Below, piece by piece: positions 674 through 32,349 of a stretch of 32,349 bases of DNA (the first letter of the stretch is position 1; each line of letters starts with the position of its first letter). The translations under genes and the position numbers were made by a program. Where the stretch lies: the IMG/VR virus record IMGVR_UViG_3300025430_000076, positions 1 to 32,349 of that record, one strand, 5' to 3'. The notes beneath the pieces were generated by a model. The model searched no databases, was not told where the DNA came from, and saw only the letters and a program-made list of their open reading frames with translations. Source of the stretch: a virus.

Positions 674-701
674 TTTCCTTCACTCTGGTATAGTGAAATC
701 T

Positions 702-995
702 ATGGACTACTCATCTTTGCTCTCCGACGACCAGAAGCGTGAACTTCTTACCCAGCGCATCCAGCAGTTTGCTGCTGAGGCGTATCAGCACAGCCTGAAC
801 TTGCAGGTGGCACAGGCGAATAGCGACACGCAAGCCGAAACCATTGCCCAGAACGCAATCAGCACGTTGGACAACGCCCTACAGGTTCACATTGACGCTC
901 TGAACGCTCTTGCGCCAGCGGTTTCCACCACACCGCCCATTGACCCAACTGCAAGCGCAAATCCTGAATCTGCGCCGATTACACCAGCCCAGTAA
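702..995 (+). CDS. Small helical protein, unknown function
   Basis: A 97-residue protein starting at ATG 702 (MDYSSLLSDDQ); a GTG at 693 would add three residues. Neither start has a clear Shine-Dalgarno sequence, but the octamer TAGTGAAA lies at 691-698, just upstream of the ATG. The first ~70 residues are Gln/Ala/Leu-rich and should form amphipathic helices (around QRIQQFAAEAYQHSLNLQVAQ). The C-terminal ~25 residues are Pro/Ala/Thr-rich and probably disordered. It sits 28 bases after the glycine-rich fibre gene and before a second structural gene. A role as a fibre chaperone or small virion component is possible from position only. No family recognised. Confidence 0.6.
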   Translation: MDYSSLLSDDQKRELLTQRIQQFAAEAYQHSLNLQVAQANSDTQAETIAQNAISTLDNALQVHIDALNALAPAVSTTPPIDPTASANPESAPITPAQ

Positions 996-1052
996 ATTAG
1001 AAATCCTTTGGTAAAGTGTTGCCATAAGGCACACTATCCATAGGAGTTGTAA

Positions 1053-1778
1053 GTGGCACAGGTATTTCTCAACTCTGGCTTGACCGTCATGCTCAACCAG
1101 ATTATTACAGCAACACCATCTACCTACTCGCAACTCTACGTTGGTCTTTACACGGGTCTGTCGGGAACGACAGTTCCGTCGGCTACCGCCACTGTAGGTA
1201 GTGGAATCACGGAAGTCACGGGTGCTGGCTATGCCCGTCAGGCTGTCACGTTTGCCACGCCCGTAACTGCTGCATCGGGTCTTTCCACCTCAACCACGAC
1301 TTCAACCGGCAACACGGCTGGCAACTCATACATCACTACGAACGGAACCTACACGGGAACCATTACCACTTACGCTGGTCTGAAAGCCGGTATGGTGATT
1401 ACGCTCGGAACGGGTGGCACATTGGAAAGCCACATCATTACGGGTCTGCCCGGTTCTAACCAAATCGTTATCAGCGGAACCCTGACGAACACGCAGAACT
1501 CTGCCAACATCAGCATTGGCGACAACTTGCCACCGACCTCTGACACCTATTACGGTGGTCAGAACTTTCTCGGAACTGGTATCAAGACGACACCAACCGC
1601 AGCATCAACGTTCGGCCCAGCACTCGGAACTTGGACTGCCGCTAACGGCTACTTCATCATTACCGCCTCGTCTGGTGGAACTGCGCTCTACGCCGCTAAC
1701 TTTGCCGACGCTTCATCGCCAGTTCTTGCTGCGAACGACACGCTTGCCTTCACGCCTACTTGGCTTATGAGCAACTAG
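1053..1778 (+). CDS. Beta-rich virion protein, fibre/decoration type
   Basis: A 241-residue protein with a GTG start at 1053, supported by AGGAG at 1042-1046 (6-base spacing). It opens with a hydrophobic stretch followed by LYVGLYTG, then ITEVTGAGYARQAVTF. Near the end come FGPALGTWTAANGYFIITASSGGTALYAANF and NDTLAFTPTWL. This layout (LyVGL...E..G.gYaRq.v.F...g.w...gGt.ly...l) is one seen in short phage fibre or decoration proteins encoded near capsid and connector genes. A Gly/Thr-rich insert at about residues 105-150 (AGLKAGMVITLGTGG) resembles the small modules in the large tail proteins downstream. A bulged hairpin (arms 1016-1023 and 1028-1034) precedes the gene. Virion role likely; exact location unknown. 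Confidence 0.6.
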   Translation: MAQVFLNSGLTVMLNQIITATPSTYSQLYVGLYTGLSGTTVPSATATVGSGITEVTGAGYARQAVTFATPVTAASGLSTSTTTSTGNTAGNSYITTNGTYTGTITTYAGLKAGMVITLGTGGTLESHIITGLPGSNQIVISGTLTNTQNSANISIGDNLPPTSDTYYGGQNFLGTGIKTTPTAASTFGPALGTWTAANGYFIITASSGGTALYAANFADASSPVLAANDTLAFTPTWLMSN

Positions 1779-1797
1779 TAGAGGCTGGTGATGGGCT

Positions 1798-2979
1798 ATG
1801 CCCACGACAGTTTCTAATGCCAACATAACCTTTGCGTTCTATAACGGTGGTGGAAACACGCCGTTTATTGGGCTTTACAAGGGCGGTCGGACTGGCAATG
1901 CCTACGTCACCATCGGTTCGGTGGTCGGCATCCCCGTCACCGACGGAACAAAGTCAATCCCGTATGTCCGGTTTGGCTCTACGCCAGAAATCCAAATCAC
2001 CACGCTGTCAAAGACTTTGGCACACACAAATGCTGCATCCTTCTGGGAAGTTTCCACCACATCAGGGGTTGTTTCCAATACGCACAATGTCAATGGCTCT
2101 ACGTCAGAGGCAAGCGTCACCACTGGCAACAAGTTCACGGCATACATAGAAAACTCGTCTGCTGTTCAGGGTGCGGTCGCCGTCGGCTCAAAGGTTTTCC
2201 AATACCTCTCTAACTCGTCTGTCGCCCAAGTTTTCACTACGGTGGGAACGAATACAACCGAACTGGTTGTTGCCGTCTATGGTTCGGCGGTTCAGTTATT
2301 CAGTTTCACCAGCACTAAGGTTCGTTCGGCATTAAGGGCAGGAAGCACAACTGGGGCTGAAGTGAGTGACGGGGTGAAAACCCTTACGCACACTGTTGTT
2401 GGCGACGCTACAGAGGTTTCCACCACCGACGGGACAACCATTAGGTCGCACAACGTATCTGGCTCTACGCCCCAAAGTCAAGTCACCACAGGCACAAAGT
2501 TTTCTGCCCGTGCCAATTTTGCAGCATCTGTCGCCGTTTCTGGGGCTACGGGGGCATTTCTACGCTCACTAACTCGCAACGGGTCGTCAGTTCAGGTGGA
2601 AACGCAAGGAAACGGCAAATTACTTACCCACAATGTCGCTGGCTCTACGACACAGGCGCAAGTTTCCACCTCGAAGCGTGTATCTACACGTTTGCGAGCA
2701 TCGTCAAACGCCCTACTCAACACTTTCACCTCACTAAAGCAGGTAGCCAGTAAGCGATACGGGTCGTCTGTAGATTTCCAAATGCAGACTGGTTTTGCGC
2801 TTGTTTCTCAACTGTTTGTTTCAGCACCCGTTATCTTTCAGGAATACCTGACTTTTGAGCAACTAAACGACGCTCCTATCACGACAAACCGAGAACAAGC
2901 AGTAGCATCATTCACAGACTCGGTGGTTAGTGAAATAATCCAAGACGCACCAGTTATTACGTTTGAGGAGCGAAACTAA
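1798..2979 (+). CDS. Repetitive fibre-like virion protein
   Basis: A 393-residue protein starting at ATG 1798, 19 bases after the previous stop. From about residue 50 to 310 it consists of degenerate short beta repeats with the pattern H-N-V-x-G-S-T-x-x-x-x-V-T/S-T-x-x-K. Clear copies lie near nucleotides 2080-2135, 2450-2505 and 2628-2680, and the DNA word ggctctacg recurs with them. Such short regular repeats without enzymatic motifs suit a trimeric beta-helical fibre shaft. The C-terminus is different, acidic and Gln/Glu-rich (about residues 340-393). The stop overlaps the next start (TAATG at 2977-2981). Fibre identity is inferred from architecture, not from a recognised family. Confidence 0.55.
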   Translation: MPTTVSNANITFAFYNGGGNTPFIGLYKGGRTGNAYVTIGSVVGIPVTDGTKSIPYVRFGSTPEIQITTLSKTLAHTNAASFWEVSTTSGVVSNTHNVNGSTSEASVTTGNKFTAYIENSSAVQGAVAVGSKVFQYLSNSSVAQVFTTVGTNTTELVVAVYGSAVQLFSFTSTKVRSALRAGSTTGAEVSDGVKTLTHTVVGDATEVSTTDGTTIRSHNVSGSTPQSQVTTGTKFSARANFAASVAVSGATGAFLRSLTRNGSSVQVETQGNGKLLTHNVAGSTTQAQVSTSKRVSTRLRASSNALLNTFTSLKQVASKRYGSSVDFQMQTGFALVSQLFVSAPVIFQEYLTFEQLNDAPITTNREQAVASFTDSVVSEIIQDAPVITFEERN

Positions 2980-3320
2980 TGGCAGACACACTTACTTACC
3001 CAACACCAGCAGCAAACCTGCCACAGGCCTCGTTTCTCTGGCTTGACGCAAGCGGAACGCCATTGGATTTCAGCACGGGTTGGACGTTCCAAATGAAGAT
3101 TGGTCGCCCTCCAAACCCTGCGCAAGTCATTATTTCATCAGGGATTATTGGTCTTACCAGCACCAACGGTTCGGCAAACATGGTTGTTCAGTGGGCTGAC
3201 GGCGCACTCTCGACACTCACACCGGGTCGTTGGTATTTCCAAATCACCGCAACACAAACGTCAAACGGCGCACAGCGTATTTTGACTGGCTCAATCGTAT
3301 TCAACTTCGCCCAAATGTAA
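2979..3320 (+). CDS. Small beta-sandwich virion protein (BppU N-terminus-like?)
   Basis: A 113-residue protein translationally coupled to the preceding gene by TAATG, with GAGGAG at 2965-2970 as ribosome-binding site. The pattern FLWLDASGTPLDFSTGWTFQMKIG, then VQWADGALSTLTPGRWYFQITAT, then RILTGSIVFNF is the one seen in small phage beta-sandwich domains (BppU N-terminal or Ig-like): a strand pair, an L-x-PG-x-W/Y-x-x-x-I-x-A turn, and a closing strand. In baseplates such domains anchor receptor-binding proteins. Here it follows a fibre-like gene and precedes the connector genes, so it may attach the fibre to the virion. The fold assignment is by eye and only moderately secure. Confidence 0.5.
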   Translation: MADTLTYPTPAANLPQASFLWLDASGTPLDFSTGWTFQMKIGRPPNPAQVIISSGIIGLTSTNGSANMVVQWADGALSTLTPGRWYFQITATQTSNGAQRILTGSIVFNFAQM

Positions 3321-3330
3321 GGATAGTGAA

Positions 3331-3849
3331 ATGACTTGGACATACTCCGCAGACCCAACTTCGTCGCAAAAGGACGCTATTCGTTGGCTTGTTGGTGATA
3401 CCAACCCCGATACGCCACTTGTTCAGGACGAGGAAATCGCCTTCAACCTGATGGAAATGAACTACGAGATTTACCGTGCGGCAGCGAACACCGCACAGAA
3501 CATTGCCTCTACGTTCACAGGTTTGTCTCAAAGCACCTCTAAGAGCGTCGGAGGGCTTTCTCTGTCGCAGTCCTATGGTGACCGTGCGCAACGCTACGAA
3601 CGTCTGGCTAAAGACCTTCTGGCTCGTAGTCGCCGTGTGAACCCACCGATGGTGAACGCCGCTCCACAGGCTCTTGGCGCAGAATTCAAGGTTGGCGGTT
3701 CGTTTGACCCCTACTACGCCGAAACGAACTACTGGCCTACAAACTCTACTCTTGGTGTTACCAGCACCTACGGCACGGGATACAACCCCAGTGGCGACGG
3801 TAGTGGTGGTGACGGTCAAGGCGATGCGTTCAACGGTGAGAACCCGTAA
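3331..3849 (+). CDS. Head-tail connector protein (gp6/Ad1-like adaptor)
   Basis: A 172-residue protein starting at ATG 3331 with AAGGA at 3319-3323. The N-terminus has the familiar connector signature: KDAIRWLVGDTNPDTPLVQDEEI, matching the D-x-V/I-R-x-L-x-GDT...L-x-D-EEI pattern of HK97 gp6-like/SPP1 gp15-like adaptors that bind the portal. A helical region follows (residues ~45-105) with an A-R-Y/Y-E-R-L-A-K helix. The last ~35 residues are Gly/Asp/Asn-rich and probably flexible. The octamer TAGTGAAA (3324-3331) overlaps the start codon. It is the first gene of a compact connector cassette and ends in a TAATG overlap with the head-closure gene. Confidence 0.8.
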   Translation: MTWTYSADPTSSQKDAIRWLVGDTNPDTPLVQDEEIAFNLMEMNYEIYRAAANTAQNIASTFTGLSQSTSKSVGGLSLSQSYGDRAQRYERLAKDLLARSRRVNPPMVNAAPQALGAEFKVGGSFDPYYAETNYWPTNSTLGVTSTYGTGYNPSGDGSGGDGQGDAFNGENP

Positions 3850-4256
3850 TGGCAGTTGACCCACTTCTGCTGGAAATGATGACCCAGACGATTCTGGTTC
3901 AGAACCCCCCAACCTACGCCGTTCCTACGCCGTCAGCACCTTTGGACATTTATGGTCGTCACGCACAACCTCTGCCCAGCGGTTCCACCAACACCAGTGA
4001 GCAAGCGTGGACAACGGCAAAGTCATACGCCTGCCGTATTGAGTTCCAAACAATGATATTCAAGGACAGCGAGGGGCGTGAGCGCAAGTCGTCTGGTCGT
4101 GCCTACCTGACGAGTTTCTTTCCCGAAATCAGCACGGAAAGCCTTGTCTGTATCCCCAGCCAAACGCAACCTGCCCTGCGATACCCCGTAATCGCTTACA
4201 TAGACAACAACTACGACGAAAACGGGCCTTATTCCACGACTATCCACTTCGCATAG
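3849..4256 (+). CDS. Head-closure (stopper) protein
   Basis: A 135-residue protein whose ATG overlaps the preceding stop (TAATG, 3847-3851). Visible features: a stretch YACRIEFQTMIFKDSEGRERKSSGRAYL, a following acidic strand, and the ending VIAYIDNNYDENGPYSTTIHF. The core E-G-x-x-x-x-S-S-G-x-x-Y-L followed by a P-x-x-x-I ... D-E-x-G-P-x-x-x-x-x-x-F end is typical of SPP1 gp16/HK97 gp7-type head-completion proteins, which close the portal channel and dock the tail. Position directly after the adaptor and before the gp10-like gene supports this. No truncation seen. Confidence 0.7.
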   Translation: MAVDPLLLEMMTQTILVQNPPTYAVPTPSAPLDIYGRHAQPLPSGSTNTSEQAWTTAKSYACRIEFQTMIFKDSEGRERKSSGRAYLTSFFPEISTESLVCIPSQTQPALRYPVIAYIDNNYDENGPYSTTIHFA

Positions 4257-4269
4257 GGAATAGTGAAAA

Positions 4270-4722
4270 GTGGCTACGTTCAAGGTTTTGTTTGACGCTT
4301 CTAGCCTGCCAAGCAAGGCAAAGGTAGAACACATATTCAAGACGGCTATGGTCAATGCCCAGAACACCGTAATGAAAAGGGTTTTTGACGAAAGCCAGCA
4401 ACTTGTTCCCGTCGACACTGGTGCGTTGAAAGCGTCTGGCACATTGGAACTGGCTAATGAGTTCTTTCTAGAGGCGACGGTGGAATACGGCGCAAACATT
4501 GACCCAACCATTGACTACGCCGTTGTCGTCCATGAGGATTTGGAATTCAGCCACGCAGCGCCTACGCAAGCAAAGTATTTGGAAGTTCCCTTCACTCGCC
4601 ATCAAGACGAAATCAGAGAGGAAGTGCTGAAAAACTTGCGTGAGGAATGGGCGAGGTCGGGAATTGGCGCATCGTTCAACGCCGGAACCTTCTCAGAGGA
4701 TTTGAAGTCATTTGGGCTGTAG
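4270..4722 (+). CDS. HK97 gp10-like tail-completion/minor head-tail protein
   Basis: A 150-residue protein with a GTG start at 4270. The weak purine run AGGGAA and the octamer TAGTGAAA (4261-4268) precede it. The diagnostic block is LVPVDTGALKASG near residues 45-57, followed by a Tyr-Gly strand, a YAVVVHEDLEF segment (residues ~88-98) and QAKYLEVPF. This is the HK97 gp10 family signature (P-V-D-T-G-x-L-x-x-S ... V-H-E ... H ... K-Y-L-E-x-P), whose members act at the head-tail joint or in tail completion. The C-terminal 45 residues are a charged helix (RHQDEIREEVLKNLREEW). The gene lies between the head-closure protein and the tail terminator, the expected order. Confidence 0.8.
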   Translation: MATFKVLFDASSLPSKAKVEHIFKTAMVNAQNTVMKRVFDESQQLVPVDTGALKASGTLELANEFFLEATVEYGANIDPTIDYAVVVHEDLEFSHAAPTQAKYLEVPFTRHQDEIREEVLKNLREEWARSGIGASFNAGTFSEDLKSFGL

Positions 4723-4731
4723 TATTTCACT

Positions 4732-5184
4732 ATGGCTCTCTTAGACGACATTGCAACTTTTCTGGTGGCTAAGGTCACTGCCTCTGCCTATGGCACGTCA
4801 CAGGGGCTTGTGGCAGGTGTAAATCTGTTTATCGGGCGTATGCCAGCCGAAGCACCAGATGCCGCTGTAGTCGTTCAGCAGTATGAGGGCAAGGGTTCTG
4901 ACTTCACTATGGGCAACGGAATCACCGCCCTTGACTATCCACGAGCGCAAGTTACCGTGCGTGGCTTGCGAGAGGACTATCCGGGTGCGTATGCGTGGGC
5001 GAACACCATCCGTGACGTTCTAGGTGGCTGGGTGGTTCCCGACCCCGTGTATTTCCCTTACGTTGTGCGTATTCAGCCCATTGGTATCCCAAACCCGATT
5101 GGATACGACGACGTTGAGCGACCACGCTTCACCATCAATTTACAATTCACGACGAACAACAACAACGGGTTGCCGACGACATGA
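4732..5184 (+). CDS. Tail terminator protein
   Basis: A 150-residue protein starting at ATG 4732. No good Shine-Dalgarno is visible; the reverse octamer TTTCACTA (4725-4732) runs into the start codon. The N-terminus is a helix (LLDDIATFLVAKV). It is followed by LFIGRMPAEAPDAAVVVQQYEG and then PRAQVTVRGLREDYPGAYAWANTIRDVL, with a D-V-E-R-P-R-F-T-I-N-L-Q-F end. This is the arrangement of siphophage tail terminators, which cap the tail tube and dock it to the head. Its place after the gp10-like gene agrees. Its stop overlaps the next start (ATGA at 5181-5184). Confidence 0.75.
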   Translation: MALLDDIATFLVAKVTASAYGTSQGLVAGVNLFIGRMPAEAPDAAVVVQQYEGKGSDFTMGNGITALDYPRAQVTVRGLREDYPGAYAWANTIRDVLGGWVVPDPVYFPYVVRIQPIGIPNPIGYDDVERPRFTINLQFTTNNNNGLPTT

Positions 5185-5426
5185 CCGTAGAGCGTGAGGT
5201 GATTATCAAAACCTTACGGGCGGCTCGCAAGGCTAATGAGGCGGCCGTGTTCGCTCTTGGGGCTGTGGAGAAAATGCTCTTAGAGCCAGAGGCAACGCCA
5301 CTCGCAGACGATGCTGAACCGGCAGAGGAAACGCCAAAGACGTGCGACCACGCTGATGCCATACCAGTTCAGACAACCGACGGTTCGTATTTGGTATGCC
5401 ACTGTGGTGAACAAATAAAGTCATAA
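5181..5426 (+). CDS. Small putative zinc-binding protein
   Basis: An 81-residue protein coupled to the tail terminator by an ATGA overlap. Residues 1-35 form a charged, Ala-rich helix, followed by an acidic Glu/Pro/Ala linker (residues ~36-52). The C-terminal part holds C55-x-H57 and C73-H74-C75, a plausible small zinc-ribbon site, around a short strand pair (IPVQTTDGSYLVCHCGEQI). No family recognised. It is the last gene before the internal promoter at 5428. A role in late-gene regulation or tail assembly cannot be told from sequence. Confidence 0.55.
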   Translation: MTVEREVIIKTLRAARKANEAAVFALGAVEKMLLEPEATPLADDAEPAEETPKTCDHADAIPVQTTDGSYLVCHCGEQIKS

Positions 5427-5427
5427 C

Positions 5428-5456
5428 TTGACTTTGCTAGTGCCAGTCTGTATAAT
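5428..5456 (+). promoter_or_regulatory. Sigma70-type promoter upstream of the small genes and tail-tube block
   Basis: TTGACT (5428-5433), a 17-base spacer and TATAAT (5451-5456), five and six of six matches to consensus. TG lies immediately before the -10. Transcription should begin near 5463, giving a ~50-base leader before the ATG at 5512. It starts two bases after the stop of the previous gene. This looks like a dedicated promoter for the genes from 5512 onward, including the abundant tail-tube proteins. Confidence 0.8.
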
Positions 5457-5511
5457 AAGTAGGCGCAGTTATGACTGTGTTTTTTGCAATTGACACCTGA
5501 TAGGAGTGATT

Positions 5512-5841
5512 ATGAATAAGCGCAAAGGCCTCATCTACCACACTGGTCGCTTCCACGCCGCTTGCAGGGCTTGTGAGCAACAACTAAGCCCACAAAACTC
5601 TTGGTTTGAGAATATGAACGTTGCACGGGCGTGGCTTGACACAGAAGAAGGCAACAAGACGTTTGCCGACCACGTTTGCGACCCAGAGTTTGCCGAAATC
5701 GTTGAAGCCAAAATGGCTCGCAATAGGGAAAACTTTGCTAGGAACAAGGCCGCCGACGAGGCTAAGCGGGCGAAACGCCGTGCTACTATCAGCGACACCC
5801 CCGCTCCACCTGCTCTCACTCGTATGCTGGGGGGGTTCTAG
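5512..5841 (+). CDS. Small basic protein with a CxxC motif, unknown function
   Basis: A 109-residue protein; ATG 5512 is preferred because AGGAG (5502-5506) is five bases upstream. A GTG at 5506 overlaps that AGGAG and is less likely. C18-x2-C21 lies near the N-terminus (AACRACEQQ). The middle is helical and acidic (WLDTEEGNKTFADHVCDPEF). The region from about 68 to 90 is Lys/Arg-rich and helical, followed by a Pro-rich segment (SDTPAPPALTR). It is the first gene after the consensus promoter. No family recognised. Confidence 0.6.
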   Translation: MNKRKGLIYHTGRFHAACRACEQQLSPQNSWFENMNVARAWLDTEEGNKTFADHVCDPEFAEIVEAKMARNRENFARNKAADEAKRAKRRATISDTPAPPALTRMLGGF

Positions 5842-5843
5842 TT

Positions 5844-6107
5844 ATGGCAAATAAAAAGGAAATCACCCCTCGCTACGTTCCCACCTACGAGGTGGCGACC
5901 GAGTGGAACGAAATCAACGCTGGCGACCTTGTAAAGATTTCCGGTGAGCGTGGCGAGTTCACGTTCATCAAGGTTCACCTCCGCAACAACGAGGTCACTG
6001 ACGTAATCGTTCACGGCGGAACGACAGGGAACACCACTATCCGTGCGTTCTATCCCCACCGAGTATCCGCTATCAAAAAGCGCAAAAAGCGTCAAAGCGA
6101 AGAATAA
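5844..6107 (+). CDS. Small SH3-like beta-barrel protein, unknown function
   Basis: An 87-residue protein starting at ATG 5844, two bases after the previous stop, with a G-rich run (5829-5835) upstream as possible ribosome-binding site. The core ATEWNEINAGDLVKISGERGEFTFIKVHLRNNEVTDVIVHGG reads as alternating strands of a small SH3/KOW-like barrel, with AGDLVKI as the first strand. It ends with a very basic tail (KKRKKRQ), suggesting nucleic-acid or acidic-surface binding. Function unknown; co-transcribed with its upstream neighbour. Confidence 0.6.
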   Translation: MANKKEITPRYVPTYEVATEWNEINAGDLVKISGERGEFTFIKVHLRNNEVTDVIVHGGTTGNTTIRAFYPHRVSAIKKRKKRQSEE

Positions 6108-6240
6108 ACAGCACCCCTAGAGCCTCATACAGCCTCTCTAATGGGTCTGCCTATACCTTCCCCTACCCGATTAGCAAACTAAAAATCCAATTATGGGTGG
6201 TAGTCTCTACCCCGTAGGGTCACTAGTCGCTAAGGGCGTT
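6108..6240 (+). other. Leader region before the 89-aa gene with alternative small hairpins
   Basis: If translation starts at 6241, these 133 bases are untranslated. They contain GGTAG (6199-6203) pairing with CTACC (6207-6211), and CTAC (6207-6210) could instead pair with GTAG (6214-6217). The two hairpins exclude each other, and the region lies just upstream of the AAGGG ribosome-binding site. No convincing promoter or terminator is seen. The stems are short, so a regulatory role is only a possibility. Confidence 0.3.
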
Positions 6241-6510
6241 ATGGCAAAATCAACACCGTCATACCAAGTTTCAGGCAATTCACCGTTATGGTATAACGGC
6301 AAGGTTGCCAACGTTGGTGATGTCGTCAATGATATTCCCGGCGAAAGCATCTCGTGGTTGCTCGCAGACGGATTCATTATCCCCGTCGCACAGCCCGTCA
6401 CGCCTGACGTTGCCCCAGAGCCTAGCGACGCACCTGTCGCTGACCCCTCAACCGACCAAACACCTACGGAAAGCGCACCCGTTGAGCCAAGCGCAGAGGC
6501 TGGTAACTAA
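6241..6510 (+). CDS. Small protein with acidic Pro-rich tail, unknown function
   Basis: An 89-residue protein taken from ATG 6241, which has AAGGG at 6232-6236 four bases upstream. An in-frame ATG at 6193 would add 16 residues (MGGSLYPVGSLVAKGV) but has no ribosome-binding site. Residues 1-52 look folded, with a strand-rich region (SPLWYNGKVANVGDVVNDI) and ISWLLADGFIIPV. This resembles the small head/tail-associated proteins that carry a W/Y-N-G-x...G-D-V motif. The rest is a disordered acidic tail rich in Pro, Ala, Glu and Asp. The stop overlaps the start of the first tail-tube gene (TAATG). Confidence 0.55.
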   Translation: MAKSTPSYQVSGNSPLWYNGKVANVGDVVNDIPGESISWLLADGFIIPVAQPVTPDVAPEPSDAPVADPSTDQTPTESAPVEPSAEAGN

Positions 6511-7715: not shown

Positions 7716-7726
7716 AAAGGAATAAA

Positions 7727-8479: not shown

Positions 8480-8493
8480 TTGTAGTAGTATCC

Positions 8494-8534: not shown

Positions 8535-8546
8535 TGGAAACTATTT

Positions 8547-9085: not shown

Positions 9086-9104
9086 GATTATCCACAGGTG
9101 ACCA

Positions 9105-26384: not shown

Positions 26385-26386
26385 CC

Positions 26387-27976
26387 ATGTATAAAATGTC
26401 CGAAAAGATGACGAAATCCCTAAAGGGGTCGCACCGACCAATGATTCTGGTCGGCGTGGTGTCGGTTGATGGCACTCAAACGTTTATCCCCATCGACAGC
26501 GGAACGGTGACGATTGACCGCACCAGCCAAGACGTGCGACGCACTCTCAATTTCACTACAGCGAAAGAGGATTTGGTTCCTCTCTACAACTACGACCCGT
26601 TGCAGATTTACGGCAACCACGTCTATGTCTATCGTGGCGTTCTTTGGAACCTTGACGCTATTGACCCCCGACTTTATTCAGCACCCCTACCGTTGGCAAA
26701 AGAGTGGCGTGTGCCAGCCAACGGGGCGTATGAACTCGTGCCTCTGGGCGTATTCCGTATCAACACCGTTTCCGTTGCTGAGGATAAAGACGGTGACATC
26801 AAGATTACGGTTGACGCTTCGGACATCGCAGCAAACATTGGTAAAAACCACTGGACAAACCCCGTCACAGTTTGGAAAACCAAATACAGCGTTCCCGTCG
26901 CCAAGACCGACACAACGCCGGAACAGACCTACATCGCTTCCAGCACCCAAGAAGCAATCAAAATGCTTATCCAAGACCGTTGGCCTGCCCACAACTCATT
27001 CGGGCCTCCGACGTTCAACTTTTCTGGTGTAAATGACAAGGCGTTGAGCAAGCCAGTGATTATGGGTAGCCAGACCGTTTCCACCAGCGGTTCCAATAGC
27101 CCGTGGACAGACATTTCCGCTTTGGCAACAGCACTCAACGCCGAACTGTATGTGGATGCCGACGGGGCTTTCACGCTCCACACCGTTCCTGACCCGAACA
27201 CCATTCCACCAGTTTGGAACTTTCTTGACGGCGAGGGTGGTTTGCTCACCAACGCAGAACGCAAAATCCAAGACTCTAAGGTTGTGAACTACGTCATTGC
27301 CACTGGTGAAAACACGGGGGCAAAGAAACCTATTCGCTCTATCGCAACCGACAACGACCCCAGTTCACCAACGTATTATCTCGGAACATTTGGGCGAGTT
27401 GTTGGTATGGAACCCGGTCGCAAGAAACTGGTCACCCAAGCAGAGGTCGACGATGCCGCTAAGACCTACCTCAACTGGTATGCCGGTGGTGATGAGGAAG
27501 TCACTATCAAGGGCGTTGTAAATCCTGCTCTTGACACGGGCGACGTTATTCGTATTCGTCGTCGTAAGGTCGGCATCTTTGACATTTCAGCAGTTGTGTG
27601 CGAACTGGATGTCGAAGTCTTGCAAAGCAATACCGTTATGGCTAGCACCCTTGTAGTGAAAAACGTCAAGAAGGATATACCCGTCGGCACTCAACTGCTC
27701 GTCAACACCAACTACGGCAGTCAGGCTCTACGAGTGGCAAAGACGTGTGCCGCTAAATCAACGCTTTTGTATGTCGACCCGTTCTACCCTGCTGATAACT
27801 ACCGCAAGGACACGATTATCTGCGACGCAAAGATTCCGAGTGACGGTGCGGTCAATTACTTTATCGACAAACTGACTATTCCACTAGACCTGACTACGGA
27901 AATTGAGATTACTGCCCGTGAGCGTCGTGTAGGAACCAAGAAGGACGCTGTTCGTATTGCGGAGTACAACCAATAA
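26387..27976 (+). CDS. DUF5047-like minor tail protein (baseplate-hub type)
   Basis: A 529-residue protein starting at ATG 26387, two bases after the previous stop. The N-terminus (GSHRPMILVGVV...IPIDSGTVTIDRTSQDVRRTLNFTT) and the PLGVFRINTVSVAEDKDGDIKITVDASDIAANI region fit actinophage minor tail proteins with DUF5047. These have the usual S-H-R-P, G-x-V-x-x-D-x-x-x-x-x-R-R-T and P-L-G-V-F-x-I elements. The central part (VVNYVIATGENT) is the expected hub-like beta domain. Residues ~425-480 contain a small Val/Thr insert (IPVGTQLLVNT...STLLYVDPF) that looks like a related mobile module. It probably forms the hub joining the tail tube to the tip fibres. Stop and next start overlap (TAATG). Confidence 0.75.
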   Translation: MYKMSEKMTKSLKGSHRPMILVGVVSVDGTQTFIPIDSGTVTIDRTSQDVRRTLNFTTAKEDLVPLYNYDPLQIYGNHVYVYRGVLWNLDAIDPRLYSAPLPLAKEWRVPANGAYELVPLGVFRINTVSVAEDKDGDIKITVDASDIAANIGKNHWTNPVTVWKTKYSVPVAKTDTTPEQTYIASSTQEAIKMLIQDRWPAHNSFGPPTFNFSGVNDKALSKPVIMGSQTVSTSGSNSPWTDISALATALNAELYVDADGAFTLHTVPDPNTIPPVWNFLDGEGGLLTNAERKIQDSKVVNYVIATGENTGAKKPIRSIATDNDPSSPTYYLGTFGRVVGMEPGRKKLVTQAEVDDAAKTYLNWYAGGDEEVTIKGVVNPALDTGDVIRIRRRKVGIFDISAVVCELDVEVLQSNTVMASTLVVKNVKKDIPVGTQLLVNTNYGSQALRVAKTCAAKSTLLYVDPFYPADNYRKDTIICDAKIPSDGAVNYFIDKLTIPLDLTTEIEITARERRVGTKKDAVRIAEYNQ

Positions 27977-29046
27977 TGTTCGACATGAAGGACTTGGCGA
28001 ACTCGTTGGTGAACAACGGAACGTGGGGCTTTGCGCCCGTAGATACGTTCCGTATGGGCATTGTCGCCGGATACGACCCAGCGTTTTCGTTTGACGACGG
28101 GGCGAATACGTTTCCAGCACTAAGCGTTCAGTTGGCTGGCGACGAACGAATGATGCACGGCTTTCGCTTTGCTGAACACTACGTTCCGCACTTGGGCGAC
28201 ACAGTATGGGTCTTGATTTCACCAGACGACCACTGGGTTGTCGGTGCTTTGGCAACCAGCGCAACAGAGCGAGCCAAGCGTTCACCTATGACGTATATGG
28301 GGTCTGCCACCGCCGCTGGGCAAACCAACCCTGCCGTCACCACCGCCTTGCTTCCAAATCGTTTGTATCGGGTTGAGGGGCAAGTGCATTTCACTACAAG
28401 CGGGTCGGGCGCAAACTATGCGGGTCAAGTAAGCCTCAAAGTCACACAGCCGTATTCCAGCACACCGCTTGTATTGGAAACCCGTGATGTTTTCCCCAAT
28501 AACTCGTATGTCGTCACCGGAAGTCAAGAGTGGTCAATCACCGACCAATCCAAATGGTCAAACGGGCTTTGGGCGGCGACGAACACAAACTCGGAATACA
28601 CATGGACGCTAGAGGTGAACTCTCTAGACTCAACGCCGTCTTACGCTTCCTACAACGAAAATAACGCTTATCACGCTGGCGACTTGGTGGTCGACACCAA
28701 CGGACACTATTGGAAGTGCGTTCAGTCGGTCGCTGGCGTTTGGTCAAGTTCAGCAACTTATTATCCGGGGCAACTTGTTCTTTACCCCGCTCAGAGCGAG
28801 TATTTGTTTGCAAACTTCAATAATCAAAACATTTCACCTGCGACAACGGCAAATGGCTGGGATTCTAACTTCAACACTCAAACAAACGTTATAACCTCAA
28901 CACCGTTCTATATGCCAACGTGGACGTTTACGGGTGTGTTCGGCGGTTCATTGCCCACTACCCCGTATTTCACTAGGGTTACCCCGCCCACCATTACGGT
29001 TACCAGTAGCCGTTTGACCGTTCACGATATGGGCGTTGCATCGTAA
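27976..29046 (+). CDS. Tail-tip protein with OB-fold-like N-terminus and tandem carbohydrate-binding modules
   Basis: A 356-residue protein coupled to the hub gene by TAATG. Residues ~20-95 (GIVAGYDPAFSFDDGANTFPALSVQLAGDE...VPHLGDTVWVLISPDDHWVVGAL) read as a gp5/VgrG-type OB-fold, with the G-D-T-V-W-V-L and V-V-G-A-L strands. Residues ~100-215 form a beta-sandwich. Residues ~222-300 contain two tandem CBM5/12-like units: YNENNAYHAGDLVVDTNGHYWKC, then SSSATYYPGQLVLY...NGW. These have the aY-x-x-G-D/Q-x-V and Y-x-C/A aromatic pattern used in chitin and peptidoglycan/glycan binding. The C-terminus is a strand-rich closing segment. The likely role is glycan recognition at the tip. The domain calls are by eye. 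Confidence 0.65.
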   Translation: MFDMKDLANSLVNNGTWGFAPVDTFRMGIVAGYDPAFSFDDGANTFPALSVQLAGDERMMHGFRFAEHYVPHLGDTVWVLISPDDHWVVGALATSATERAKRSPMTYMGSATAAGQTNPAVTTALLPNRLYRVEGQVHFTTSGSGANYAGQVSLKVTQPYSSTPLVLETRDVFPNNSYVVTGSQEWSITDQSKWSNGLWAATNTNSEYTWTLEVNSLDSTPSYASYNENNAYHAGDLVVDTNGHYWKCVQSVAGVWSSSATYYPGQLVLYPAQSEYLFANFNNQNISPATTANGWDSNFNTQTNVITSTPFYMPTWTFTGVFGGSLPTTPYFTRVTPPTITVTSSRLTVHDMGVAS

Positions 29047-29080
29047 CGGGATTTACAAATCAGCATTGTATTATCGTGCT

Positions 29081-29389
29081 ATGGCAAGCACCTATTTAGT
29101 CACTGCGATATGCGCTGGAGTTCCAGCACTGCTTAGTTCTGTTGCCGCCATCCACGAAATCCACAAGGGGCGCAAGGAGAACAGCGGTGACCACCGCAAA
29201 GTTCAGGGCGCATTGGAACGGTTGGACAACCGGATGGAACGCCTAGATAACAAGATTGAGGGCGTAGACATCAAGGTGGAAAAGACGGATTTACGCTTTG
29301 ACGCAATTGAGGATAAGATTGAGCGTCACTTAGGGTGGCACAGAAGCCAAGCCGAAACCGATTTGGAAAAGGCTCTAAAGAAAGAGTAG
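29081..29389 (+). CDS. Small coiled-coil membrane protein (DUF2746-like)
   Basis: A 102-residue protein taken from ATG 29081. A TTG at 29036 would add 15 residues and overlap the previous gene; no clear ribosome-binding site is seen for either. Residues ~3-21 (STYLVTAICAGVPALLSSVAAI) form one transmembrane helix. The rest is a charged coiled coil with a heptad-like run (ALERLDNRMERLDNKIEGVDIKVEKTDLRFDAIEDKI). This matches the topology of the DUF2746-type proteins found beside holins in actinophages. It may be a lysis accessory, antiholin or virion-release factor. The holin gene begins two bases after its stop. Confidence 0.6.
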   Translation: MASTYLVTAICAGVPALLSSVAAIHEIHKGRKENSGDHRKVQGALERLDNRMERLDNKIEGVDIKVEKTDLRFDAIEDKIERHLGWHRSQAETDLEKALKKE

Positions 29390-29391
29390 AT

Positions 29392-29736
29392 ATGCCGGAC
29401 GCAATCACCACCACCGAAATTCAAGTTGCCGACCAAGCACTCGCAAAGGCAACTGCCGTTGTAGAGGCAAAGGGTCAGCCACTCGCCCCTACTAACGCCA
29501 CCAACACCGAAATTGACGAACTGGGCAACGACATTGTTCGCTACGTCACGCCGGTTCTGGTTGGTTGGTTCATTACCCTCGCCGCCAAGAAGGGCTTTCA
29601 CATCAGCACGGCGACCGCCTACCAGCAGGTCTTTCCGTTCGTGTCGTCGGGATACTTCATCCTCGTTCGCTACCTTGAACAGCACATCCCTGCTCTCGGT
29701 CGCTTGCTCGGTATCAAGAAGCCAGCCAAAAAGTAG
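29392..29736 (+). CDS. Holin-like small membrane protein
   Basis: A 114-residue protein taken from ATG 29392 with AAGAAAGAG upstream. An in-frame GTG at 29335 would extend it by 19 residues into the previous gene and lacks a ribosome-binding site. Residues 1-45 are soluble and acidic. Two membrane helices follow: IVRYVTPVLVGWFITLAAKKG and a second around QQVFPFVSSGYFILVRYLEQHIP. It ends with LGRLLGIKKPAKK, a positively charged tail. The R-x-V-x-P-x-x-V-G...Y-F-I-L-V-R-x-L-E-x...L-G-x-L-L-G layout is known in actinophage holins. No endolysin is within the window. It is the last gene of the plus-strand late block, directly before the terminator. Confidence 0.65.
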   Translation: MPDAITTTEIQVADQALAKATAVVEAKGQPLAPTNATNTEIDELGNDIVRYVTPVLVGWFITLAAKKGFHISTATAYQQVFPFVSSGYFILVRYLEQHIPALGRLLGIKKPAKK

Positions 29737-29742
29737 TGCTAC

Positions 29743-29785
29743 GTTGGGGATAGAACCCCGACAAGAGTTTGTTTCGTAAGAAACA
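29743..29785 (+). other. Two stem-loops in the 3' region of the late operon
   Basis: GTTGGGG (29743-29749) pairs with CCCCGAC (29756-29762, one G-U), and TGTTTC (29770-29775) with GAAACA (29780-29785). Together with the terminator they make a compact three-hairpin 3' end on the late mRNA, which could protect it from exonucleases. Confidence 0.5.
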
Positions 29786-29786
29786 G

Positions 29787-29829
29787 CAAAACCCCTAGCC
29801 AATCCGTTTTGGAAAGGCTAGGGGTTTTG
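29787..29829. terminator. Bidirectional intrinsic terminator between convergent operons
   Basis: A perfect 14-bp stem CAAAACCCCTAGCC (29787-29800) / GGCTAGGGGTTTTG (29816-29829) with a 15-base loop. The T-run in the right arm serves the plus strand and the complement of the A-run in the left arm serves the minus strand. It lies exactly between the plus-strand late genes and the minus-strand Gam-like gene. Confidence 0.85.
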
Positions 29830-29853
29830 TTCTGCGTCACTTTGAGCGACAAT

Positions 29854-29911
29854 CGTGGTGAACGAAACTTGCTATTACGACCGAGTTGGATAGCAAGTTT
29901 CGCCCACCACG
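29854..29911. repeat. Long interrupted inverted repeat after the Gam-like gene
   Basis: CGTGGTG (29854-29860) pairs with CACCACG (29905-29911), and CGAAACTTGCTAT (29863-29875) with ATAGCAAGTTTCG (29890-29902). The two stems are separated by symmetric 2-base internal loops, with a 14-base apical loop. All 20 pairs are perfect. It starts eight bases beyond the minus-strand stop and has no U-run, so it is not a simple terminator. It could be an mRNA 3' stabiliser, a protein-binding site or a small structured RNA. Confidence 0.7.
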
Positions 29912-29919
29912 AAACTTTG

Positions 29920-30495
29920 TTAGCCGACCACCTTGACGCTGGTGCTAATACCGCCCTCAACTGGGGCTAGACCCTCAACGGCGATTCCTGTGGTCGGGTC
30001 AAGAACAGCACCGTCGGCGTAGTCGACGAACTTCTTGATTTCCGCAAGGTTCGCCTCACGCTTTACACGCACCCACTCGTCCTTGCCGTAGTGTTCAGCC
30101 CACGACAGGAACACGTCAAGGTCGGTCACCTCAACCTTTGGCGCAACGACACGGCTCGTCACCTTGCCGTCTGGGAAATCAAGGCTCTTGCGACCGTCAG
30201 TGTCGTTCTCACGAACACGCATAAGGTAATCGCCCAAGATACGCTCAAAGTAATCAACGGTCTGTGAGTTAGACGTGGTGTTCGCCTCAACCCAAGCGTT
30301 GATGCGGTCAAGTTCGACCTGTGCCTGACGCTTCACCTCGTCAATACGACGTTGTGCCTGTGCGAGACGGCGCATAGCCCACAAGGCTTCGTCGTCGTTG
30401 TTAATGGTGAACGCATTAGGGTTCTCAAAACCCGTTGGCTCACCAAGCGAGGCTAGGTAATCCTCTAATGATTGGTCAATTGCTTCGTTCGGCAT
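29920..30495 (-). CDS. gam: Gam-like host-nuclease inhibitor / DNA-end protector
   Basis: A 191-residue protein on the minus strand, ATG at 30495-30493, with AGAGGG upstream. The core DEALWAMRRLAQAQRRIDEVKRQAQVELDRI is the long N-terminal helix of the Mu Gam family. It is followed by a second helix (TVDYFERILGDYLMRVRE), a beta hairpin (KSLDFPDGKVTSRVVAPKVEV) and WVRVKREANLAEIKKFVD. This order is the Gam domain plan, which dimerises around DNA ends to block host exonucleases and resembles Ku. The N-terminal 30 and C-terminal 30 residues are extensions. It has its own promoter and is in the same block as the Sak4-like ATPase, a typical pairing for phage DNA protection and annealing. Confidence 0.8.
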   Translation of the reverse strand: MPNEAIDQSLEDYLASLGEPTGFENPNAFTINNDDEALWAMRRLAQAQRRIDEVKRQAQVELDRINAWVEANTTSNSQTVDYFERILGDYLMRVRENDTDGRKSLDFPDGKVTSRVVAPKVEVTDLDVFLSWAEHYGKDEWVRVKREANLAEIKKFVDYADGAVLDPTTGIAVEGLAPVEGGISTSVKVVG

Positions 30496-30535
30496 TTTGC
30501 CCTCTTTCTCTAATCGGTTATAACTGCTTGATACA

Positions 30536-30564
30536 ACTATACAGGTGTCTAGTGACTAACGCAA
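30536..30564 (-). promoter_or_regulatory. Minus-strand promoter for the Gam-like gene
   Basis: Read on the minus strand: TTGCGT (30564-30559), 17-base spacer, TATAGT (30541-30536), with CTG directly before the -10. The gene start is ~40 bases downstream at 30495. The -35 is only a partial match. Confidence 0.55.
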
Positions 30565-30568
30565 GTCT

Positions 30569-30841
30569 TTAGGCGGAAATCTTTTCGCCGTTGCGGATTG
30601 CGCTCTCAACCATTGTGTCCATAAGGCGACGTGCGCTCTCGTAGCGGTCAAGCGGATAAACACCACTACCCGACTTCACAGCGTAGGCACGGCGCAACTC
30701 GCCAACATAGGGCGAGATTATCTCAATCGTGCGCTTGCCACCACGCTTATTTACGAGGGTGACCTTGTTGTCCAGTTCGGCGATTGCGGCATCCTCACGC
30801 TGAGCCTTCACCTCAATGTCTGGGTCGTATTCGTAGTCCAT
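30569..30841 (-). CDS. Small minus-strand protein, unknown function
   Basis: A 90-residue protein starting at ATG 30841-30839. AAGGAG (minus strand, 30852-30847) is five bases upstream; a GTG three bases earlier would be too close. It has an acidic N-terminus (DYEYDPDIEVKAQREDAAIAELDNKV), a basic middle (NKRGGKRTIEIISPYVGELRRAYAV), and a C-terminal helix. The IEIISPYVGELRRAYAV segment and R/K content suggest nucleic-acid contact. No family recognised. It is 73 bases upstream of the Gam-like gene start and may be partly co-transcribed with it. Confidence 0.6.
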   Translation of the reverse strand: MDYEYDPDIEVKAQREDAAIAELDNKVTLVNKRGGKRTIEIISPYVGELRRAYAVKSGSGVYPLDRYESARRLMDTMVESAIRNGEKISA

Positions 30842-30874
30842 CACAACTCCTTATCCGTTATCTGATACTAAACC

Positions 30875-30903
30875 ACTATACAGCATAGGTGCGACAAAAG
30901 CAA
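30875..30903 (-). promoter_or_regulatory. Minus-strand promoter for the 90-aa gene
   Basis: Minus strand: TTGCTT (30903-30898), 17-base spacer, TATAGT (30880-30875), with CTG directly before the -10. It mirrors the promoter of the Gam-like gene. The -35 is weak (TTG matches only). Confidence 0.5.
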
Positions 30904-30946
30904 ATACACACGAAACACCATACAAACAAAAGGTTTTAGATAACAC

Positions 30947-30975
30947 TTGACGGCGGTTGAGTGAGCGTGTAAGAT
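30947..30975 (+). promoter_or_regulatory. Plus-strand promoter for the Sak4-like ATPase
   Basis: TTGACG (30947-30952), 17-base spacer, TAAGAT (30970-30975), TG directly before the -10. Transcription should start near 30982, leaving a ~48-base leader. It is divergent from the 90-aa gene's promoter, with about 43 bases between the -35 boxes. Confidence 0.65.
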
Positions 30976-31029
30976 TGCCCGTGACGACTCCGACGACAGA
31001 TGTTAGAGCCTGATTAGAAAGAGAACCAA

Positions 31030-31938
31030 ATGTCCTTATTCACCAAAGCCACAAAGGCACAGGCAAAAGCCCGTGTCGCCTTCTGTGGCCCATCCGGCGC
31101 AGGCAAGACCTATTGGTCACTGCTCTGGGCAACCAAGTTGGCAGAGGGCGGCAAGATTGCCTTCATTGACACCGAACGTAGTTCAGCATCGTTGTATGCC
31201 GACAAGTTCGACTTCGACACCCTCTCAATGTCACCGCCCTACCACCCCGACCGTTTGGTTGAGGCAATCCGTTCAGCAGAGGCAGAGGGATACGCCGTAA
31301 TCGTTATCGACAGCCTCACGCACTTCTGGCAGGGCAAGGGTGGCGTTCTAGAAATCGTTGATGACGCTAAGGGTCGCTTCGGTGGCAATCAATACATGGC
31401 TTGGGGCGTGGGAACACCACTCCAGCAAGCAATGGTTGATGCCCTACTGGCGTTCAACGGACACGTCATTGTGACTATGCGCTCTAAGACCGAATACACA
31501 ATGGACAAGAACGAAAAGGGCAAGACCGAAATCAAAAAGGTCGGTATGGCTCCGCAACAGCGTGACGGTATTGAGTATGAATTCACTCTTGTGTTTGACG
31601 TGGATATTCAGCACCGTGCCGTTGCCACCAAGACACGTTGCGACACGTTGGCAGACCGTTCGTTCCAGCCAAACGCCGCAGAGGAAGCCAGCGACATTTT
31701 CCTGAACTGGCTCTCGTCTGGTGACCCGTTGCTCTCGCAGAACGAGCGTGACGCTATCGACAACAAAATCAAGAGCCTGTCGCCGTCCCAGCGTCGCACT
31801 CTCGGTTCTGAGTGGGCGAGCAAGGGCTTGCCAAAGGTCGGCGCAATGACCGAAAGCCGTAAGGCAGACGCATTAGCGTTGATTGAACGAGCCTCAGAGT
31901 TTGACGACGAGGAAACGACCGACGAGGTTCCGTCGTAA
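31030..31938 (+). CDS. RecA-fold ATPase, Sak4-like single-strand annealing/recombination factor
   Basis: A 302-residue protein starting at ATG 31030 with GAAAGAGA upstream. Walker A is GPSGAGKT (residues 20-27). The next strand ends FIDTERSS (~45-52), and Walker B is AVIVIDSLTH with Asp near residue 94. A second conserved strand (HVIVTMRSKTEY) and the V-x-M-A-P-Q-Q-R-D-G-x-E-Y-E-F-T-L-V-F-D block (~174-195) match phage Sak4-type/AAA NTPases. Those act with an SSB in strand annealing and replication-linked recombination. A C-terminal helical tail (residues ~235-302, acidic end) probably mediates partner binding. No DNA-binding loop motifs can be identified with certainty. It pairs functionally with the Gam-like gene and precedes the initiator-like gene. 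Confidence 0.8.
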   Translation: MSLFTKATKAQAKARVAFCGPSGAGKTYWSLLWATKLAEGGKIAFIDTERSSASLYADKFDFDTLSMSPPYHPDRLVEAIRSAEAEGYAVIVIDSLTHFWQGKGGVLEIVDDAKGRFGGNQYMAWGVGTPLQQAMVDALLAFNGHVIVTMRSKTEYTMDKNEKGKTEIKKVGMAPQQRDGIEYEFTLVFDVDIQHRAVATKTRCDTLADRSFQPNAAEEASDIFLNWLSSGDPLLSQNERDAIDNKIKSLSPSQRRTLGSEWASKGLPKVGAMTESRKADALALIERASEFDDEETTDEVPS

Positions 31939-31980
31939 ATCACCACCAGAGGGGTCTATAAGGCTCTCTCACAGGCGCAA

Positions 31981-32016
31981 CCCCCATTGGGTAGGGATAG
32001 ACCTACCTGATGGGGG
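31981..32016 (+). promoter_or_regulatory. Two-step hairpin after the ATPase gene
   Basis: CCCCCAT (31981-31987) pairs with ATGGGGG (32010-32016), and GGTAGG (31990-31995) with CCTACC (32002-32007), around loop GATAGA and a symmetric TG/TG internal loop. No U-run follows (GATTTGCC). It may attenuate or process the mRNA before the initiator gene. Confidence 0.55.
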
Positions 32017-32061
32017 ATTTGCCATTTACGAGCGTAATCACACACAGCGCATCCCGTTTGT

Positions 32062-32092
32062 GTAAGGTGAACAACCTTACGAGAGGAGTCTC
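32062..32092 (+). promoter_or_regulatory. Hairpins at the ribosome-binding site of the initiator-like gene
   Basis: GTAAGGT (32062-32068) pairs with ACCTTAC (32074-32080) around GAACA. It is immediately followed by GAGA (32081-32084) and TCTC (32089-32092) enclosing GGAG, the core of the ribosome-binding site. Stacked, they would place the Shine-Dalgarno in a small loop just before GTG 32095, a plausible translational control element. Confidence 0.45.
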
Positions 32093-32094
32093 TA

Positions 32095-32349
32095 GTGTCC
32101 ATCCGGCGGTCGCCTTCAGCACTACGAAAGAACTACACGGTTCTGAGCAACACCACCCTTGCCGACGAGCGTTTGTCTTGGGAGGCACGAGGCTTATTGG
32201 CGTATTTGCTCTCAAAGCCCGACAACTGGCGTGTGAGCGTCAAGCATCTAGTGAAAATCAGCCCTAACTGCGGTCGGGTAAAGACCTATCGCATTATCAA
32301 AGAACTAGAGGACTGCGGATACCTCACCCAAGAACAGACCCACGACGAT
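32095..32349 (+). CDS. Replication initiator/helix-turn-helix protein, N-terminal part (runs off window)
   Basis: The frame is open from GTG 32095 to the window end: 85 residues with no stop. GAGAGGAG (32081-32088) lies six bases upstream of the start. The sequence RKNYTVLSNTTLADERLSWEARGLLAYLLSKPDNWRVSVKHLV, then a CGRVKTYRIIKELEDCGYL segment, is the winged-helix pattern of phage and plasmid replication proteins. In these, L-S-x-x-A-R-G-L-L-x-Y-L-L-S-x-P-x-x-W is followed by a recognition helix and E-L-x-x-x-G-Y-L. Such domains start helicase-loader/initiator proteins, and the position after the ATPase fits. The C-terminus is outside the window, so a transcription regulator cannot be ruled out. 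Confidence 0.7.
   Translation, partial: MSIRRSPSALRKNYTVLSNTTLADERLSWEARGLLAYLLSKPDNWRVSVKHLVKISPNCGRVKTYRIIKELEDCGYLTQEQTHDD

Follow-up and report, generated by a model that had tools for sequence, protein, structure and literature searches.

An over-represented word in a phage tail region

The 32,349-nt virus record IMGVR_UViG_3300025430_000076 of IMG/VR (positions 1–32,349, hereafter the window) carries siphophage tail genes, encoding two major tail-type proteins, a tail assembly chaperone, very large tail proteins and a DUF5047 tail protein, with the main genes on the + strand. Its commonest 8-mer is TAGTGAAA, which in this phage is the most frequent spelling of an asymmetric core of eight bases, (T/C)RSTGRAA, with A or T as the usual next base. 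For analysis beyond the window, a 51.4-kb composite (A; window position equals A position minus 8171) was assembled from the window and two overlapping IMG/VR contigs of the same phage population, with 3823 of 3829 and 7016 of 7020 bases identical in the overlaps; its coding part amounts to 43.8 kb. A 61.5-kb relative (B, or G008) is collinear with A and shares 75.7% DNA identity across 25.3 kb aligned. Both A and B are probably incomplete. Further relatives are given by their G numbers. By capsid, the closest named phages are Arthrobacter phages (Ottawa, 49.5%), a 61% capsid relative is located in an Actinomycetota metagenome-assembled genome (MAG), and WhiB-like genes occur in several relatives; an actinobacterial host is likely for this family of freshwater phages. 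Recombination genes are abundant in it and include exonucleases, Sak4-like, Gam, SNF2 helicase, and RusA-like and endonuclease VII-like resolvase genes.

A recount of TAGTGAAA in the window returned the 33 exact copies, 17 on the + strand and 16 on the − strand, that an initial annotation had reported, starting at positions from 691 to 32249. Its estimate that composition predicts about one copy was also sound, as 100 dinucleotide shuffles gave a mean of 0.84 and a maximum of 3. A T precedes AGTGAAA in all 33 window copies; 30 of them are followed by A or T, and none by G. Composite A holds 56 copies (31/25 on the two strands) at a mean spacing of 916 bp, in agreement with the roughly 1-kb spacing first noticed, and B holds 51 (31/20 in the orientation used), so that the word is neither confined to the window nor absent from relatives. 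Most copies in A (49 of 56) lie inside open reading frames (ORFs), where they occupy at least four codon phases as had been proposed, with 8 and 14 copies in two phases of the same strand, 17 and 9 in two of the opposite strand and 1 in a fifth. Neither codon bias nor shared protein motifs explain the enrichment: shuffles of the coding DNA of A that preserve codons and amino-acid order gave a mean of 2.5 copies (maximum 8 in 200 shuffles) against 42 observed, and the corresponding coding counts were 34 against 3.0 in B, 37 against 2.9 in G418 and 75 against 6.3 in G415. The shuffle tests thus bear out the proposal of a recognition-type word, strand-balanced in this phage and under selection. 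The word also takes about two to three times its expected share of intergenic DNA and gene borders in A (7 against 2.9), B (9 against 2.8) and G415 (18 against 7.6), with a like excess in G418 (8 against 2.8) and G422 (7 against 3.3); the corresponding words of G416 (7 against 9.1), G417 (6 against 5.2) and G420 (3 against 2.3) show little or none.

On the + strand of the window, the copies that are exact in B too lie at 2928..2935, 3324..3331, 8558..8565 and 27654..27661, those changed in B at 25784..25791 and 32249..32256, and the other exact copies at 691..698, 4261..4268, 11027..11034, 11522..11529, 13801..13808, 17052..17059, 18811..18818, 20185..20192, 22310..22317, 23167..23174 and 25355..25362. 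On the − strand, copies at 4725..4732, 20997..21004, 26551..26558 and 28389..28396 are exact in B too, the copy at 6943..6950 is changed in B, and further exact copies lie at 2232..2239, 9712..9719, 10148..10155, 10516..10523, 14736..14743, 16692..16699, 19153..19160, 23746..23753, 23966..23973, 24997..25004 and 28968..28975. The palindrome GTTATAAC was also noticed four times in the window, at 18563, 24360, 28888 and 30517.

A degenerate core motif with an exclusion zone

The initial annotation had recognized a real recognition word; it saw only one spelling of a wider degenerate motif, and missed the rule that governs its spacing. (T/C)RSTGRAA occurs at 142 sites in the window (4.4/kb; 72 + and 70 −), with A or T next in 98 of the 142. 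The spellings are TAGTGAAA (33), TGGTGGAA (31), TGCTGGAA (25), TGGTGAAA (17), TGCTGAAA (14), TAGTGGAA (8) and others (14), and further strand-balanced over-used words of A (TGGTGGAA, TGCTGGAA, TGGTGAAA, TGCTGAAA) match the same pattern. All but one of the sites (141 of 142) form a main array on both strands of positions 1..29128, with a minimum spacing of 48 and a median of 150; the copy of TAGTGAAA at 32249 is the sole site of the motif class outside it. In coding DNA, TRSTGRAA exceeded codon shuffles in A (177 against 26), B (174 against 26.6), G415 (311 against 53), G420 (151 against 25) and, by less, G426 (34 against 23.7). Single-position deviants in A were near expectation at positions 4 (36 against 35), 5 (21 against 21.8) and 6 (14 against 13) and for C or T at position 7 (42 against 36), mildly raised at positions 1 (54 against 30) and 3 (27 against 18.4), and low for C or T at position 2 (6 against 12.7). 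Avoidance of other words was rejected as the cause of the motif enrichment, as most deviants are near expectation and TGAAA, the parent word, itself shows a net excess (173 against 106 in A). Some neighbour words are depleted without explanation, such as [ACG]AGTGAAA (0 against 4.6 in A).

The sites keep apart from one another. None of the 141 spacings in the window was below 45 bp, whereas uniform placement gave 25 such spacings on average and at least 10 in each of 5000 trials. The same deficit of close pairs was found in A (2 observed against 44 expected), B (0 against 42), G415 (7 against 71), G416 (1 against 10.7), G417 (1 against 7.8), G418 (6 against 40), G420 (1 against 36), G423 (9 against 75), G424 (4 against 36) and G427 (5 against 28). 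Pooled over seven genomes, the pair correlation was 0.03–0.10 below 35 bp, rose to 0.28 at 40 bp, 0.53 at 45 bp and 0.83 at 50 bp, and was about 1 from 60 bp and roughly flat beyond, defining an exclusion zone of 45–50 bp. Same-strand, convergent and divergent pairs were excluded equally, except for nine divergent pairs 0–9 bp apart, in which the sites overlap or abut. Because both strands share one exclusion rule, the motif is very probably read as double-stranded DNA, and because different spellings exclude one another, they belong to one site class. The limits of that class can be drawn in the same way: T(A/G)(A/T)TGRAA lies outside the exclusion (9 against 10.1 close pairs), RRSTGRAA takes part in it in some measure (5 against 20.9), and the reversed core shows no exclusion rule. 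Coding constraint does not produce the zone, as 226 sites picked at random from the 975 synonymous opportunities of A gave 44.4 close pairs (minimum 28 in 2000 picks) against the 2 observed. Nor does a general dislike of nearby repeats, since 437 frequent 5-mers of A had an observed/expected ratio of 1.04 for pairs 8–45 bp apart. A second group of over-used words, TTTGGAA/TTGGAA, was seen in A and its relatives; TTGGAA is mildly attracted to core sites (333 against 240 at 12–42 bp from them), TTTGGAA words showed no fixed offset from core sites, and they were handled as a separate group.

Dialects, conservation and site-poor gene blocks

Positional conservation between A and B is confined to the motif. 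Once blastn pairs off the collinear band had been dropped, 23 of the 56 copies of TAGTGAAA in A aligned without gaps, of which 17 are exact in B (two share one B site), compared with 17.8% of all aligned 8-mers; taken from B, the count was 16 of 24. For the motif class, 57 of 97 sites were kept against 608 of 2546 (23.9%) for random words of equal degeneracy, and identity was raised at the motif bases alone. Conservation of this kind argues that the motif is functional.

Relatives differ in the spelling that they prefer, TAG-, CAG-, TGC- or TGG-TGAAA, and so possess phage-specific dialects, which were read from tables of words above minimum counts. G415 combines TAG and TGC, G416 and G417 use TGC, G419, G420 and G425 use CAG and TGG, G423 is mixed with CAG included, and G424 uses TGG and others. 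G416 and G417 have 57–58 TGC copies on one strand and 12–18 on the other, and 89% of the sites in G424 are on the + strand, so that strand balance is a property of A and some relatives and not of all. The dialect patterns of three further genomes were picked once their enriched words were known: G421 has no core motif but 242 copies of TGSTGAW (close pairs 3 against 35.9), G011 has 261 copies of TGSTGA (10 against 31.5), and the G426 candidate TRSTRAAA (0 against 2.4) is too rare for judgement. In G421 and G011 the exclusion thus shifts together with the dialect. In G428, TGSTGA showed neither enrichment nor exclusion (73 copies; close pairs 5 against 3.9). Spelling also varies at some homologous sites (near-identical contigs included): the one at A 1015 is TAGTGAAA in 7 cases, CAGTGAAA in 9 and five others, and the one at B 13130 is TAGTGAAA in 14, TGCTGAAA in 2 and TGGTGAAA in 2, plus other words. 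Other strongly over-used words were noted in more remote contigs that had been retrieved by way of the Sak4-like gene: CAGTGCGG (25 in L025), TACTGAGC (25 in L078 and 14 in L041) and AGCCAGCT (38 in L084).

Some gene blocks are nearly devoid of sites. Positions 29129..32248 of the window hold no motif site on either strand, leaving 3128 bp between the sites at 29121 and 32249, and matching deserts of 3096 bp and 3151 bp were found in B and G415. Within this desert lie the gene for a Mu-Gam-like end-protection protein (29920..30495, − strand; PF07352 7.7e-17, phrog_2205 1.2e-36) and that for a Sak4/RecA-like AAA protein (31030..31938, + strand; PF13479 3e-25; phrog_1366 and the Sak4-like phrog_124). 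A second desert on both strands at 4733..6679, covering small genes ahead of the major tail genes, leaves 1955 bp between the sites at 4725 and 6680, and part of the corresponding stretch of B is likewise empty. Opposite-strand gene runs in G415 and G423 contain no sites. In ten motif-bearing genomes, the synonymous opportunities used were 1 of 127 in Sak4-like genes (27 expected at the mean), 1 of 44 in Gam (9.4), 5 of 87 in the capsid gene (18.6) and 17 of 220 in the SNF2 helicase (47), with the replication initiator (45 of 146; 31), tape-measure-type (156 of 649; 139) and major tail genes (88 of 406; 87) at or above the mean. Active avoidance was rejected as the origin of the deserts: with per-gene codon use, the counts were 1 against 3.4 for Sak4, 1 against 2.9 for Gam and 0 against 2.1 for the opposite-strand group. 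As these are only slightly under background, the safe statement is that enrichment is absent and depletion slight. The antisense ORF cluster 44, which looked like a regulator within a desert, was discarded because a conserved gene of the + strand lies opposite to it. Early expression could plausibly be what the deserts have in common.

Other features of these genomes were recorded. Four-base palindromes are extremely avoided (in the window, GATC 0, AGCT 0, CGCG 2 and GTAC 9); GATC is missing from 16 of the 17 family genomes and present in L121, L122 and L126. N6/N4 DNA methylase genes or pieces stand side by side, with seven PF01555 matches in B and four in the L096 record. The peptide KGDxxGHxFHGNQ(Y/W), seen in the members inspected (a subset of 120), is joined to otherwise different proteins that form a multi-copy cluster in 16 of the 17 family genomes, with three members each in A (43901–44443, 44456–44968 and 50721–51263 on the − strand) and B (among them 52970–54297); it looks like a targeting or processing tag.

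A candidate reader and possible meanings of the motif

Profiles of 44 protein clusters (all that occur in at least 8 genomes, cluster 1 excepted) were run against the 17 family genomes, together with contig L096, which supplies the part of A otherwise uncovered, and, for Arthrobacter phages Ottawa and Laroye, 50 kb of each. The survey yielded a protein with the distribution expected of a reader. Cluster 26 (~128 aa) had profile matches in 16 of the 17 family genomes, in the case of A through contig L096, and none in motif-free G428 or in the 50 kb surveyed of either Arthrobacter phage. All 16 motif or dialect genomes carry it, a pattern confounded with phylogeny, and among the 44 clusters only 26 and 35 are in every such genome and not in G428, Ottawa or Laroye. 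Its gene (L096:5343–5723 in this phage) lies upstream of the capsid gene, at a distance of ~4 kb. The protein has a LexA-type winged helix (PF01726 at 4.5e-10 for the B protein, PDB LexA at 6.6e-8, best Foldseek matches to LexA at E 9e-4) and a Cys/His-rich C-terminal region with invariant C, H, C and C that is probably a zinc ribbon. In the structure model (mean pLDDT 66; N-terminal domain ~77–85 by blocks), the winged helix alone is of fair confidence. LexA reads a CTG half-site, which resembles the STG core. Cluster 26 thus resembles the LexA DNA-binding domain family in its winged helix and differs in having no visible peptidase domain, with the short C-terminal region bearing C, H, C and C in its place; the motif, for its part, is not a LexA-like palindrome. 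Two scans for distant copies beyond the family returned family members alone, and tblastn of cluster 26 against named phages gave just short LexA-domain matches.

A phage-encoded binding protein is the best fit to the apparent phage ownership of the word and to its dialects, spacing and gene blocks, with cluster 26 as the leading candidate reader. Our tentative first choice is that the motif may mark distributed binding sites of a phage-made protein, likeliest that of cluster 26, which would act on transcription or on DNA organization. In such a model, a sequence-specific phage DNA-binding protein would read the sites, each bound protein covering ~45–50 bp and dotting the DNA every ~250 bp, with neighbours untouched. 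Its most likely effect would be that of a dispersed silencer or an architectural layer over most genes, silencing being a guess. The layer would be kept off Gam, Sak4-like and opposite-strand operons, which would probably need early reading; this timing is likewise a guess.

Several observations weigh against this model. Cluster 35, a small neighbour of cluster 26 for which no family was found, has the same presence pattern. Dialect distance is weakly related to cluster 26 beyond phylogeny (partial Mantel r 0.154, p 0.068), so their covariation is suggestive only. The genomes that lack the motif are at the same time more distant, and that of G428 is incomplete. G422, with cluster 26 and enriched TAGTGAAA (34 against 5.3 in coding DNA), shows no wider-motif exclusion (9 against 10.4). 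A LexA-type dimer would ordinarily bind inverted pairs, whereas the sites here are single. About 10 chance close pairs are estimated in A from codon-shuffle densities and 2 are seen; the exclusion is stronger than plain redundancy predicts, and no model considered explains this well. Finally, sites are at full density in several genes of high use, the major tail genes for instance, so that neither expression level nor timing can by itself account for which blocks are deserts.

Other readings were considered. A Chi-like signal owned by the phage, steering its end-processing and recombination enzymes (PD-(D/E)XK exonuclease, SNF2-type helicase, Sak4-like) so as to protect DNA or direct recombination, is unlikely: it would suit a short asymmetric word on both strands and within genes, in phages rich in recombination genes, that is not a host word in the genomes sampled, but the exonuclease cluster is also in motif-free G428, motif-bearing G416 and G417 are without the Sak4-like and Gam clusters, and the 3.1-kb gap would stay unprotected. 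To our knowledge, nothing in Chi biology predicts a 45-bp exclusion. The initial annotation had named host as well as phage machinery as possible readers, and a host Chi or other host-read word (uptake, silencing) copied by the phage could draw on dialects that follow different hosts, the exact host not having been found, and on the enrichment of host Chi described for lambdoid phages without RecBCD inhibitors (PMC3784561). The host counts speak against it. TAGTGAAAW was counted in 682 distinct Actinomycetota genomes, drawn from sets of 396 (phylum) and 297 (order of the MAG); its highest count, 104 in a genome of 1.8 Mb, equals 0.06/kb, whereas the window has 0.93/kb. TRSTGRAAW, counted in 394 genomes of the class, reached at most ~0.56/kb (in 1.2-Mb genomes, with a reversed control at 0.17/kb) against 2.9/kb. 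As no sampled actinobacterial genome comes near the phage density, the word looks phage-owned, and with a Gam-like inhibitor present as well (PF07352 in 16 of 20 records), a host uptake or host Chi word is improbable.

Molecular drive, as in the evolution of uptake sequences, would have conversion or copying in ~50-bp tracts spread the word and make two copies per tract redundant. DNA uptake sequences (DUS) reportedly have dialects likewise, but close pairs are fewer than even the chance background (~10 estimated in A against 2) and the local deserts are clear; we know of no enzyme that performs such conversion with 50-bp tracts, and this origin seems more improbable still. A methylation or restriction context, in which the word is the target of a phage N6/N4 DNA methylase or the sole tolerated context of a restricted shorter word, is very improbable; several methylase genes in B and the extreme avoidance of palindromes would suit it, but PF01555, the one family searched, was not found in motif-bearing G419, G420, G422 and G425 (contigs that may be incomplete) and is present in G426, a record without the core motif. 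In addition, the parent word TGAAA shows a net excess, and the exclusion is left without explanation. Least credible, and hardly to be expected, are site-specific nicks or single-strand events, with close sites shunned because they release short pieces or break the duplex. An exclusion in all strand combinations and below the chance background would agree with nicking; the equal exclusion of same-strand and opposite-strand pairs, the extreme density of 4/kb that it would require and the lack of an identified nickase would not. The host-Chi, methylase-site and uptake-sequence readings thus fit worse than a phage binding protein.

Among known systems, the stoperators of Cluster A mycobacteriophages (L5, Bxb1) are described as 13-bp sites, over twenty per genome, that lie in promoters and short gaps between genes and are oriented with transcription; their consensus varies from one related phage to another in step with repressor specificity (PMC6550527, PMC9283540). 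The motif resembles them as many asymmetric sites across an actinophage genome (142 in the window) with a consensus that differs between relatives, its reader here being a candidate only. It differs in its 8–9 bp length, its density of ~4/kb, its hard-core spacing, its location mostly within genes (as for TAGTGAAA in A) and its orientation, which in the window does not follow transcription; G424 is strand-biased. In A and B, where the search did not extend to every gene, neither an integrase nor an immunity repressor was noticed. Like Chi, the motif is an asymmetric word of octamer size enriched in some phages (PMC3784561); unlike Chi, it is not shared with any of the genomes sampled as possible hosts, and it has dialects within one phage family, high density and an exclusion zone. 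Bobay et al. (2013; PMC3784561) describe lambdoid phages with Gam-class end protection as losing Chi and those without a RecBCD inhibitor as enriched. Here, Gam (PF07352) is in motif-rich A, B, G415, G418, G420 and G423–G425 and not in motif-bearing G416, G417 and G427, so that its presence tracks the motif neither way. Lineage dialects of the DUS have reportedly been found, a likeness to the motif that extends to density, occurrence on both strands and non-random spacing, as described for Neisseria DUS and Haemophilus uptake signal sequences (USS) in PMC2397512. Those are words of naturally competent bacterial chromosomes at ~1-kb spacing, whereas the present one is a phage word with a spacing floor of 45–50 bp and no host enrichment in the sampled genomes.

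No matching described system was found in the open-access literature, judged by titles. Genome-wide recognition words are known in bacteria, as Chi and uptake sequences, and sparsely as phage repressor sites. The present phage family seems to have a word of this kind for itself, some ten times denser than those sparse sites, with a spacing rule sharp enough to be read from sequence alone and to separate functional from chance copies. Whichever protein reads it, the rule provides a new way to test viruses known from metagenomes for hidden DNA-reading systems. Should the small LexA-like protein be the reader, the evolution of DNA-binding specificity would be traceable across natural dialects and thousands of sites. 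A bolder and rather doubtful proposal is that of a genome-wide address code owned by the phage, in which a dialect motif with excluded-volume spacing would allow a winged-helix reader to lay a regular nucleoprotein layer that leaves chosen blocks bare. If true, these phages would have their own equivalent of a chromatin or silencing layer, made by the virus and programmed by sequence, with a specificity that co-evolves between relatives.

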